Below are positions 29,534 through 52,419 of a stretch of 57,348 bases of DNA, one piece after another. Where the stretch lies: the NCBI RefSeq assembly GCF_003946445.1, contig NZ_RHOF01000024.1, positions 1 through 57,348 on the forward strand, written 5' to 3'. Both the position numbers and the translations under genes were made by a program. The stretch is from Loigolactobacillus jiayinensis. GTDB lineage: Bacteria > Bacillota > Bacilli > Lactobacillales > Lactobacillaceae. Each line of letters opens with the position of its first letter. The first letter of the stretch is position 1. The notes beneath the pieces are model-generated. The model ran no database searches. It saw nothing but the letters and a program-made list of their open reading frames with translations, and was not told the origin of the DNA.

Positions 29534-30462
29534 TGCGTAAATCTAAATTATTTAAATTAACGCTACTCTTTCTGTCCTTGGTTATGGTTATGTCAGGCTG
29601 CGGTTTTCCTGGTCTTAGTAGTGACAGCAAAGATACAGTCAGAATTGCGGCTCAGAATACGACTGAACAGCAGATCATGGCGGCAATGCTACAACAATTG
29701 ATTGAACACTATTCTAATTTGCATACGACGGTAATCAGTAATCTTGGTTCTGGCACGGTCAGTTTCAATGCGCAAAAACGTGGCGATGCTGATCTCACTG
29801 CTATTCGGTATAACGGGACGGATTTTCAAACTGTATTAAATGAATCTGGTGTTACTGATCCGGCCAAGGTTGACCAAACGGTGCGAAAAGAATTTAAAAG
29901 TAAGTACCATATGACTTATTTCCCGAGTTACGGCTTTGCCGATACGTATCAATTTATGGTCACGCAAAAGTTTGCTAAGGAACATAATTTGAATACGGTC
30001 AGTGACTTGAAAAAGGTTGCCCCTAGCATGAAGGTTGGGATCGATCAGATTTGGATGAATCGTAAGGGTGACGGCTATGCTGGTTTTAAGAAGGATTACG
30101 GCTTCAGCTTTGGCCGCGTGTACCCAATGCAGATTGGTCTAGTTTATAATGCCTTAGCGAGTGGTAAAATGGACGCCGTGTTAGGTTATTCAACGGATGG
30201 GCGTATCGCTAGTTATAATTTAAAGCTACTAAAAGATAATTTAAATTATTTCCCACCATACAATGCTAGTGTTGTCGTGAATGATTCGGCCTTGAAGCGT
30301 CATCCACAATTAAAAGGAATTTTGAATCGTTTAAATGGTAAAATTTCAGTGACAACAATGCAGCATTTGAATTATCAAGTCGATAATAACTTGCAAGAAC
30401 CAGCAGTTGTTGCGAAGCAGTTCTTACAAAAACATAATTATTTTGAAAGGAGTGACGATTAA
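29533..30462 (+). CDS. opuCC: Osmolyte ABC transporter substrate-binding lipoprotein OpuCC
   Basis: Lipid-anchored extracellular binding protein of 309 residues. The signal peptide ends in the lipobox VMSGC with Cys23 as anchor. The mature part is an OpuAC-type periplasmic-binding fold (RIAAQNTTEQQIMAAMLQQLIEH; YFPSYGFADTYQFMVTQKFA; LKDNLNYFPPYNASVVV) that captures glycine betaine, carnitine or choline. GGAGGG lies upstream of the ATG; genes overlap on both sides. Confidence 0.94.
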   Translation: MRKSKLFKLTLLFLSLVMVMSGCGFPGLSSDSKDTVRIAAQNTTEQQIMAAMLQQLIEHYSNLHTTVISNLGSGTVSFNAQKRGDADLTAIRYNGTDFQTVLNESGVTDPAKVDQTVRKEFKSKYHMTYFPSYGFADTYQFMVTQKFAKEHNLNTVSDLKKVAPSMKVGIDQIWMNRKGDGYAGFKKDYGFSFGRVYPMQIGLVYNALASGKMDAVLGYSTDGRIASYNLKLLKDNLNYFPPYNASVVVNDSALKRHPQLKGILNRLNGKISVTTMQHLNYQVDNNLQEPAVVAKQFLQKHNYFERSDD

Positions 30463-31130
30463 TGCAAAGTATGAATATCTTAGAACAACTTTTCTATTAT
30501 TTTGCGCATAATGGGATGTATGTGCTTGAGCAGTTTAATCGTCATTTTTTAATTTCAATTTATGGGGTGTTGCTGGCAGCAATTGTTGGGATTCCAATCG
30601 GCATCTTTATTGCGCGTAATCGCAAGCTGAGTGGTTGGGTGATCGGTATCGCCAATGTGATTCAAACAATTCCATCCTTAGCAATGTTGTCGATTATTAT
30701 GTTAGGCTTGGGCTTAGGCGTAAATACAGTTATCGTGACGGTGTTCTTCTATGCGCTGTTGCCAATCATCAAAAATACCTATACTGGTATGGTCAACGTC
30801 AATAGTGACGTGTTAGATGCAGGTAAAGGGATGGGGATGACGCGTGTACAAGTGTTACGGATGATTGAAATACCGTTATCGCTGTCGGTGATCATGGCTG
30901 GCCTGCGTAATGCACTGGTACTGGCTATCGGTATCACCGCGATTGGCTCCTTCGTTGGTGCTGGTGGTCTAGGTGATATTATTATTCGTGGGACTAATGC
31001 GACGAACGGTGGTGCCATTATCTTAGCAGGGGCATTGCCAACTGCTTTAATGGCAATTATCGCTGATTTAGTGCTTGGTTTCTTCGAGAAAAAATTTGAT
31101 CCCAGTACACGCAAAACAGCAAAGGATTAG
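30462..31130 (+). CDS. opuCD: Osmolyte ABC transporter permease OpuCD
   Basis: Second permease subunit, 222 residues, paralogous to OpuCB. The EAA loop appears as MVNVNSDVLDAGKGMGMTRVQVLRMIEIPLSLSVI. GAAAGGAG precedes the ATG. Last gene of the operon; no terminator directly follows, and a new promoter begins only 15 nt after the stop. Confidence 0.94.
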   Translation: MQSMNILEQLFYYFAHNGMYVLEQFNRHFLISIYGVLLAAIVGIPIGIFIARNRKLSGWVIGIANVIQTIPSLAMLSIIMLGLGLGVNTVIVTVFFYALLPIIKNTYTGMVNVNSDVLDAGKGMGMTRVQVLRMIEIPLSLSVIMAGLRNALVLAIGITAIGSFVGAGGLGDIIIRGTNATNGGAIILAGALPTALMAIIADLVLGFFEKKFDPSTRKTAKD

Positions 31131-31144
31131 CTGGGTGTAATCGC

Positions 31145-31173
31145 TTGCAATTGAGTGCAAGACCTGCTATATT
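31145..31173 (+). promoter_or_regulatory. Strong promoter of the structured RNA
   Basis: TTGCAA (31145-31150), 17-nt spacer, TATATT (31168-31173) with a TG extension (TGCTATATT). Predicted +1 at about 31180. Confidence 0.75.
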
Positions 31174-31179
31174 TAAATT

Positions 31180-31459
31180 AAGGAAGACGGAGAGACTAAT
31201 CAAGGTATGACGAGTTAGTCGTCACCTGTAGACGCCAACGTGAGATTGCGTAGAAAAACAATCAGCGTTGCGCTAAGTTAGTTAGGCAATTAGGGTAACG
31301 AATCGTATCGTGCTAGGTGAAACTAGCGAACGGCGCTGATCGCGGGATCAGGTTATCACGAAAGCTATAGTGATTGCGCTAAATCACTGAAAATTGGTCT
31401 CGGAAGTTGTCTTCCGCTAGTATCGATCCGCAGGCTGCATCAAGGCCTGCGGTTTTTTT
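31180..31459 (+). ncRNA. Structured RNA of about 280 nt, family not recognised
   Basis: It starts right after a strong promoter and ends in a strong terminator (CCGCAGGC - 9 nt - GCCTGCGG with seven Ts, 31428-31459). The 5' GGAAGAC (31182-31188) pairs with GTCTTCC (31409-31415) and is continued by GAGAC/GTCTC, so the whole molecule is closed by a long helix. Inside are hairpins TGACGA/TCGTCA, GCTAG/CTAGC, CTGATC/GATCAG and ATCAC/GTGAT. The ATG of the Tag-like gene is 20 nt downstream, so it is either a riboswitch-like leader of that gene or an independent small RNA. I tested by eye the common classes (6S, RNase P, tmRNA, SRP, T-box, common metabolite riboswitches) and none fits. Confidence 0.7.
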
Positions 31460-31478
31460 GTGTTTTAAGGAGGCGATA

Positions 31479-32021
31479 ATGATGCAAAAAAACGATCAAA
31501 ATGATTGGACGGGTAACGGCGTGACTGAATATTCGGCCTATTTTGGGACACCGACGCATGATGATCATATTTTATTTGAATTGCTAACGGTTGGTGTATT
31601 TCAAGTTGGCCTAAGCTGGCAGGCAGCGGCCAGTAAGTTGCCGCTTTATCGGCGTGATTTTGCTGGTATGGTCATTACTAAGGTAGCTGCCTTTAGTGAA
31701 ATCGATGTGGAGCGAATCGCTGCAGATCCAGCAATGATTCGTAATCCACGTAAAATTCAGGCGACTATCACCAATGCTCAAGCAATTATTATGGTGCAAA
31801 AGGAGTTCGGCAGCTTTGCCAATTATCTCTGGCAGTTTGTTGAGCAAGTGCCACTATTGATCACTTACGTGACGCCAGATGAAGTTGAAACGCGCTCAAG
31901 TTTAGCCAGTAAAGTTGCCCACGATATGAAACATCGCGGGTTTAAATTTGTTGGACCAGTAGTAACTCATATGTTTATGAAAGCTGCTGGACTGATTCAA
32001 GATGAGATTCTGGATCAATAA
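31479..32021 (+). CDS. Tag-family DNA-3-methyladenine glycosylase I homologue, probably altered activity
   Basis: Helix-hairpin-helix superfamily, 180 residues. Family stretches are clear: DDHILFELLTVGVFQVGLSW, IAADPAMIRNPRKIQATITNA, and KHRGFKFVGPVVTHMFMKAAG. The catalytic and base-recognising Glu of E. coli Tag (Glu38 in LEGQQAGLSW) is Gly39 here. The zinc-snap residues (N-terminal Cys and His, C-terminal HxxxC) are also missing: the C-terminus reads QDEILDQ. The fold is kept, but ordinary 3-methyladenine excision is doubtful. AAGGAGG precedes ATG 31479 (ATG 31482 also possible). Located 20 nt after the terminator of the structured RNA. Confidence 0.8.
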   Translation: MMQKNDQNDWTGNGVTEYSAYFGTPTHDDHILFELLTVGVFQVGLSWQAAASKLPLYRRDFAGMVITKVAAFSEIDVERIAADPAMIRNPRKIQATITNAQAIIMVQKEFGSFANYLWQFVEQVPLLITYVTPDEVETRSSLASKVAHDMKHRGFKFVGPVVTHMFMKAAGLIQDEILDQ

Positions 32022-32104: not shown

Positions 32105-32106
32105 AG

Positions 32107-32133
32107 TTCGTATACGAAATGTTCGCATACGAA
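32107..32133. promoter_or_regulatory. Double palindromic operator of the MarR regulator
   Basis: TTCGTATACGAA (perfect 12-bp palindrome, 32107-32118) and TTCGCATACGAA (one mismatch, 32122-32133) separated by ATG. The outer bases also form AGTTCGTAT/ATACGAACT. Position around +1 fits autorepression. Confidence 0.75.
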
Positions 32134-32153
32134 CTATTGTGAGGAGAACTGAT

Positions 32154-52286: not shown

Positions 52287-52329
52287 AAAAAAATAACACC
52301 TAGGTCCACAGAAAGAGACCTAGGTGTTA
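52287..52329 (-). terminator. Riboswitch-controlled terminator before the DUF190-like gene
   Basis: On the minus strand TAACACCTAGGTC - TCTTTCTGTG - GACCTAGGTGTTA, a perfect 13-bp stem, followed by TTTTTTT. Its 5' arm contains the AACACC that forms the aptamer pseudoknot. Confidence 0.9.
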
Positions 52330-52361
52330 TCAGCTGACGCGGTTTTAGCAAACACCATTGC
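52323..52361 (-). promoter_or_regulatory. Fluoride riboswitch (crcB motif)
   Basis: On the minus strand: stem GCA/TGC with the conserved loop ATGGTGTT, then AAAACCGC, GCTGAT and AACACC. This reproduces the crcB-motif core (AUGG-UGUU loop, AACCGC, GCUGAU, CCU). Loop bases GGTGTT pair with AACACC to form the pseudoknot. AACACC is also the start of the terminator stem, so fluoride binding should prevent termination and switch the DUF190-like gene on. TGGTAGGAT near 52383-52391 (minus strand) may be an extended -10 promoter. Confidence 0.88.
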
Positions 52362-52419
52362 TTTTATATTTTACGCCTTTATCCTACCACGTTTCCGCTG
52401 AAAAGGGTTAAAGTCTGTC

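Follow-up and report, generated by a model that had tools for sequence, protein, structure and literature searches.

A structured RNA, predicted to be an independent gene, conserved in the genus Loigolactobacillus

The locus and its transcription signals

The DNA analysed here, referred to as the window, is a stretch of 57,348 nucleotides from Loigolactobacillus jiayinensis. Between two protein genes it holds a predicted structured RNA of about 280 nt that is present as a single copy in its own genome, a number that does not suggest a mobile element. The upstream neighbour, which by gene order we take to be opuCD, and the downstream neighbour, a Tag-like gene that is outside the RNA unit, frame a short series of features:

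30462..31130, plus strand: upstream neighbour opuCD, osmoprotectant ABC transporter permease (Pfam BPD_transp_1, 6.1e-28; gene order)
31136..31149, plus strand: TGTAATCGCTTGCA, a site resembling the CcpA box (cre) that overlaps the -35 hexamer (pattern match, conservation)
31145..31173, plus strand: promoter-like sequence TTGCAA-17-TATATT, the -10 preceded by TG (sequence; TATATT and TG conserved in homologues)
31180..31459, plus strand: predicted structured RNA of about 280 nt ending at a T run, with a conserved core at 31181-31418 (covariance model, covariation, shuffled-alignment control)
31428..31459, plus strand: intrinsic terminator, stem 31428-31452 and T run 31453-31459 (conservation)
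31479..32021, plus strand: downstream neighbour, Tag-like 3-methyladenine DNA glycosylase family (Pfam Adenine_glyco, 3.8e-48, for 31482-32021)

An initial annotation had described an exactly spaced promoter and a strong terminator around this RNA, and both are present. The -35 hexamer TTGCAA (31145-31150) and the -10 hexamer TATATT (31168-31173, plus strand, with TG ahead of it) are separated by a 17-nt spacer, and the terminator combines a nine-pair stem, seven of the pairs being G-C, with seven T. Taken alone, the hexamer match is weak evidence, as two sites of this type occur in 1.5 kb against 2.6 expected from shuffles; the promoter gains its support from conservation, because TATATT preceded by TG recurs in all six homologues. 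Terminator-like sites in the 1.5-kb stretch number eight against 1.1 expected, and the one at 31428-31459 has the most pairs. The L. backii copy has a terminator stem of different sequence in which the pairing is retained. Judged by these signals the RNA is its own transcription unit, a predicted transcript that would start at 31180, 7 nt past the -10.

The Tag-like gene was said to begin about 20 nt past the terminator, which agrees with a first ATG at 31479, 19 nt after the T run; a second in-frame ATG follows at 31482. The gene was first described as degenerate; its protein matches Adenine_glyco well, over profile positions 14-171 of 177. Relative to E. coli Tag, a number of the zinc and active-site residues near the N terminus may have been replaced. 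Further along, an inverted repeat at 32105-32138 (GTTCGTATACGAA / GTTCGCATACGAAC) lies just 5' of a MarR-type regulator (Pfam) and an MFS-transporter-like ORF, and from its sequence looks like an auto-regulatory operator. Elsewhere in the window, a fluoride riboswitch (crcB motif) at 52314-52371 on the minus strand scores 35.3 bits and barely exceeds its gathering score of 34.

Homologues and known families

A DNA search finds the RNA in six of eight Loigolactobacillus genomes: the window's own (G000), L. backii (G001), L. binensis (G003), G004, L. iwatensis (G005) and L. zhaoyuanensis (G007). The covariance model R1, which was built from the six copies and has 238 positions and 70 pairs, scores the same six genomes at 224-277 bits, the window copy at 31181-31418 reaching 259.9 bits with its own sequence in the model. 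The two other genomes of the genus gave no R1 match at E<=10 (G002) and just a 9.8-bit piece with E 1.89 (G006).

Beyond the genus, 301 family genomes returned seven matches in the DNA search, six of them within Loigolactobacillus (own genome included); the seventh, in G279, covers 21 nt inside a 134-aa ORF and was dropped. Run over 397 family genomes, R1 recovers the six genus matches and three more at 14.7, 12.6 and 11 bits (G048, G111 and G253). We deem these three chance, since they span 83-175 nt of the 238 model positions; re-scored among 28 loci they have E values of 0.0043, 0.02 and 0.068. An Acetobacter contig chosen by pattern scores 14.4 bits in the same 28-locus search, with E 0.0056. 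Among 395 order genomes, partly the same as the family set, R1 matches its own genome alone at E<=0.1; all searches of more than 40 genomes were run with stricter filters, by which weak relatives may be missed. A pattern scan of genome contigs yields 20 stretches, four of which R1 backs at more than 200 bits, all from Loigolactobacillus. In viral contigs the pattern fits five stretches, all of them without an R1 score at E<=10, and a second exact pattern fits none; plasmids and phages hold no homologue by blastn at E<=1e-5. Nothing convincing was found outside Loigolactobacillus in the family and order genomes, plasmids, phages and viral contigs searched.

The RNA had resisted assignment to any class when it was first read, and comparison with Rfam 15 leads to the same outcome. 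A search at gathering level gives nothing in the RNA region. Relaxed to E<=10, positions 31100-31500 match isrK (17.4 bits against a gathering score of 50, E 0.16) and bxd_5 (12.2 bits) alone. The isrK model recurs at one of the homologous loci (21.3 bits, E 0.62) and was taken as chance because it aligns just to the 3' end and terminator. Over the RNA in the five homologous loci, no known aptamer class matches at E<=1. The 6S RNA model (RF00013) leaves 31100-31500 unmatched at E values up to 10, and the true 6S RNA lies elsewhere in all eight genomes, as do the small SRP RNA and RNase P RNA. OLE, ROOL and GOLLD, which are included in Rfam 15, likewise give no family-model match in 31100-31500 up to E 10. 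In the literature, no title among the matches listed deals with the RNA described here, and no Loigolactobacillus small-RNA paper was found. By the sequence searches made, the RNA is a new family.

A conserved multibranch fold

Folding of 31181-31458 yields a minimum free energy of -96.9 kcal/mol. The mean for 200 dinucleotide-shuffled sequences is -77.8 (sd 4.2), which corresponds to z -4.56, and none of them is as low. The predicted fold is composed of these parts:

31182..31190, plus strand: 5' strand of P1, pairing with 31407-31415; six of nine pairs invariant
31192..31201, plus strand: 5' strand of P2, pairing with 31392-31401; nine of ten pairs invariant
31203..31226, plus strand: hairpin 1; both-side changes in three pairs
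31234..31273, plus strand: hairpin 2, two stacked stems; both-side changes in two pairs, 100% of cells paired
31294..31357, plus strand: central three-way domain; both-side changes in five pairs, within its two hairpins
31370..31387, plus strand: 3' hairpin; both-side changes in three pairs, 77.8% of cells paired in the model-fitted alignment
31401..31416, plus strand: local hairpin CGGAAG-UUGU-CUUCCG, competing with P1 for the CUUCC strand; possible in all six copies

The closing pair of strands named at the outset, GGAAGAC and GTCTTCC, is found at 31182-31188 and 31409-31415, with 221 nt from the end of the first to the start of the second, and P1 forms in each of the six single-sequence folds. 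So do P2 and a hairpin at the site of hairpin 1, the latter shifted in register in L. backii and L. iwatensis. The several internal hairpins proposed there can also be modelled: hairpins 1 and 2, those of the central domain and the 3' hairpin each carry both-side changes. The central domain is closed by 31294-31299/31352-31357; one arm (31304-31306/31333-31335) bears the hairpin 31311-31316/31323-31328, and a second hairpin is formed by 31336-31341/31346-31351. This domain appears in three of the six single-sequence minimum free energy folds (window, L. backii and L. iwatensis), and G003, G004 and G007 show other central pairings.

Selection on the structure was analysed with six sequences from two clades. 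For the six-sequence MAFFT core alignment, RNAalifold gives -66.0 kcal/mol against -27.8 (sd 3.7) in shuffled alignments, and a structure conservation index of 0.83 against 0.46 (sd 0.05). None of 300 column shuffles, which keep gap pattern and conservation class and not dinucleotides, is as low in energy or as high in index. In the model-fitted alignment, 13 of the 70 pairs show changes on both sides and standard pairs make up 94.5% of pair cells, and neither value is reached in 500 shuffles; controls in which the partners are slid by one to three columns give at most five pairs and 47.7%. One of five covariation measures is unsupportive: the alignment has 27 further standard pair types where the shuffles give 30.5, and 493 of the 500 equal or exceed the alignment. 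An unfitted alignment has both-side changes in 16 of 79 pairs, terminator included. P1 and P2 hardly vary, so covariation is no test of them and their support comes from invariance alone. The gathering of relatives and the covariation analysis that had been suggested as a check on chance folding therefore speak against it, with homologues in six of eight genus genomes and compensated change in 13 pairs: as far as these alignments can tell, the fold is preserved by selection.

The sequence itself is also constrained. RNA identity is 82-94% across the four copies linked to opuCD; for opuCD itself it is 35-40%, near saturation, at four-fold sites and 77-81% over the whole gene. L. backii and L. 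iwatensis share 97.5% of the RNA and 74% of four-fold sites. In comparisons across the clades, identity is 69-73% for the RNA, 31-37% for opuCD four-fold sites and 74-77% for the whole gene; the RNA is therefore no better conserved than the gene at that distance.

Such constraint bears on what the RNA might do. Invariant columns make up 142 of the 246 in the alignment, and P2 is fixed in sequence beyond its pairing, which exceeds the needs of a simple seed-type sRNA. Together with the rich multibranch fold, this would suit a protein-binding or scaffold RNA, 6S- or OLE-like, in which the conserved fold would be the working part. The proposal assumes the same independent gene and overlaps with the trans-acting regulator that we favour below, a reading that leaves the partner open. 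It is not 6S, which is accounted for elsewhere in every genome, and we regard it as a tentative alternative, less likely than that regulator.

The invariant CGGAAG sits just 5' of the last P1 strand and could take part in an exchange. The local hairpin CGGAAG-NNGU-CUUCCG has six pairs and is formable in all six copies, with P1 favoured by 4.8-6.9 kcal/mol. In the model, GGAAG is unpaired when P1 is formed, and its invariance therefore asks for another cause: exchange between P1 and the local hairpin is a possibility, as is a protein or tertiary contact. A possible pseudoknot, CGCC/GGCG, was seen by eye, where variation is too low for a test. An alternative in which the P2 5' strand pairs with AGUUAGUC, a joining stretch, was considered by eye and rejected, as it is not retained in L. 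backii and L. iwatensis.

Changing neighbours

The RNA lies between opuCD and tag in four carriers (G000, G003, G004 and G007), and in the window and L. zhaoyuanensis tag comes directly next. In L. binensis other DNA intervenes between RNA and tag, some 150-230 nt according to which start codon is taken. G004 has a group II intron in this position (Rfam group-II-D1D4-3, 128.3 bits, L002 1885-2059), together with an ORF that looks like the reverse transcriptase of the intron. Insertion just past terminators is known for some group II introns, and this one, extending from about L002 1802, seems to start one base past the terminator T run, as judged by a GTGCG start, the group II consensus. In the RNA-less G002 and G006, the Tag-like gene follows opuCD without another gene in between.

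L. backii and L. iwatensis are organised differently. Here the RNA follows purD, about 12 kb from opuCD, and purine-operon-like genes intervene, PurD being identified by Pfam and the remaining genes by eye (L069 and L056 in L. backii; L070 and L055 in L. iwatensis). Because this PurD shares just 55-57% identity with its counterpart in the four other carriers, where purD is located elsewhere, the purine operon is probably a foreign arrival as judged by sequence. The next gene after the RNA encodes a 149-aa protein (L056 9359-9808; L055 8498-8947) that occurs in two of the eight genus genomes and has no Pfam match at E<=0.001. No tag lies within 8 kb downstream of the RNA in L. iwatensis, and the L. 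backii contig ends soon after the RNA. Read from these gene orders, the RNA persisted through changes of both neighbours and is separable from each.

Of the two roles first suggested for the RNA, an independent element in the space after opuCD is the one that the comparison upholds, with structure and sequence kept while the neighbours change. The other, a ligand-gated leader acting in cis on the Tag-like gene, is very unlikely. A complexity of riboswitch size and the tag ORF that begins shortly past the terminator in the window and L. zhaoyuanensis would suit it. Against it, the downstream gene differs between the clades (tag in four carriers, the unrelated 149-aa gene in two), the intron in G004 and the other DNA in L. 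binensis come between RNA and tag, tag follows opuCD in two species that have no RNA, and the window tag has its own Shine-Dalgarno-like AAGGAGG past the terminator. Inspection by eye of sequence and fold also saw no upstream complement to the terminator arm that could serve as an anti-terminator. On these grounds a riboswitch or cis-leader class was rejected.

An attenuating spacer, that is a structured terminator merely insulating the opuC operon from tag, would explain the position of the RNA in four of six carriers and the adjacency of opuCD and tag in the species without it. It is hard to credit, as an insulator can do without a promoter of its own and without 235 nt of selected fold, and in L. 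backii and L. iwatensis the RNA follows purD and precedes another gene. A dual-function RNA or short mRNA for a small peptide deserves equally little weight: although the window has a frame ending LRRKTISVALS, with LRRKTISAVLS as its counterpart in G003 and G004, this frame is found in just three of six copies, no frame of at least 10 codons (ATG, GTG or TTG starts) is common to all six, and peptide coding was rejected for lack of such a conserved frame.

A cre-like box over the promoter

The site TGTAATCGCTTGCA that overlaps the -35 hexamer is the sole site of the 57-kb window fitting TGNAANCGNTNNCA, a motif based on the cre consensus of CcpA and picked after seeing the sequence. As the site is palindromic, it counts as two strand matches, against 0.60 expected from shuffles; 12 of 100 shuffles have at least two. 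A looser motif, TGNANNCGNTNNCA, matches three times against 2.26 expected and is no rarer than chance. All four opuCD-linked copies carry the identical box (13 of 14 positions), although the promoter spacer beside it has diverged. L. backii and L. iwatensis have TGTATCCGTTTCCA, which fits 12 of 14 positions and lies 10 nt nearer the -10, a score of at least 12 being reached at 33 plus-strand positions of the window.

A similar arrangement has been described for 6S RNA. According to PMC8414754, about one third of lactic acid bacterial species have a cre upstream of the 6S promoter that overlaps the -35; it is read there as inhibitory, with CcpA as the proposed repressor of 6S. By analogy, the Loigolactobacillus RNA would be repressed on preferred sugars. 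In that paper a strong cre at the 6S promoter is noted for L. backii and L. bifermentans and said to be missing from L. coryniformis and L. rennini; a simple trade between 6S and the RNA therefore misfits some species of the genus.

A trans-acting regulator as the preferred reading

The RNA has the marks of an independent sRNA gene, with its own promoter and terminator and conservation apart from its neighbours. In our judgement it is very likely a genuine gene of Loigolactobacillus for an independent structured RNA, and one under selection. Our preferred reading goes further and takes it for an independent, CcpA-controlled, structured RNA regulator acting in trans, to which we assign a probability of roughly one half.

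On this reading a Loigolactobacillus genome would hold one copy of the RNA gene. The promoter at 31145-31173 would start the transcript near 31180, to end at the terminator 31428-31459, and P1 and P2 would close a ring bearing the two 5' hairpins, the central three-way domain and the 3' hairpin. CcpA with its HPr co-factor, bound to the cre-like box over the -35, would keep the gene repressed while a preferred sugar is present, and once the sugar is gone the RNA would accumulate. It would then act in trans, most likely as a regulator binding mRNAs or a protein. Contact would most likely be made by its conserved segments, namely both strands of P2, the joining segment AAGUUAG, the internal loop CGUAUCGU/AACGGCG and, towards the 3' end, CGGAAG. 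More speculatively, target binding may open the P1 clamp, with CGGAAG pairing to the P1 3' strand as a gating step.

A bolder proposal can be built on that step: a new mid-sized RNA class of one genus, working as a carbon-state-dependent device in trans, in which a target or ligand at the 5' end swaps P1 for the local hairpin, opens the ring and exposes the working surface. We consider this version improbable. More generally, the finding would mean that sizeable RNA genes are still undescribed even in food-related lactic acid bacteria, perhaps because standard discovery pipelines need more sequences than a family of one genus can supply.

Comparison with known RNAs

6S RNA is a rod with a central bubble, whereas the Loigolactobacillus RNA is predicted to be a closed multibranch ring. 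The two are alike as independent structured RNA genes with their own promoter, and the cre over the -35 described in PMC8414754 for 6S (RF00013) of some lactic acid bacteria may have a counterpart in the cre-like box. If the CcpA link holds true, the RNA would add a lineage-specific layer to sugar control.

In this respect it would resemble RsaI of Staphylococcus and SR1 of Bacillus, independent sRNA genes that are tied to sugar supply and linked to CcpA. Both are shorter than the Loigolactobacillus RNA, which is set apart by its length and by the absence of an Rfam match. RsaI is named in PMC9217828, in a passage that does not describe its control.

Also comparable are OLE, ROOL and GOLLD, which according to PMC12286853 are heavily structured RNAs with poorly understood functions, a description that would fit the new RNA as well. 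ROOL and GOLLD are given there as phage-linked; with 659 nt for one ROOL RNA and more than 800 nt for many GOLLD RNAs, they are far longer than the Loigolactobacillus RNA, which at about 280 nt is chromosomal.
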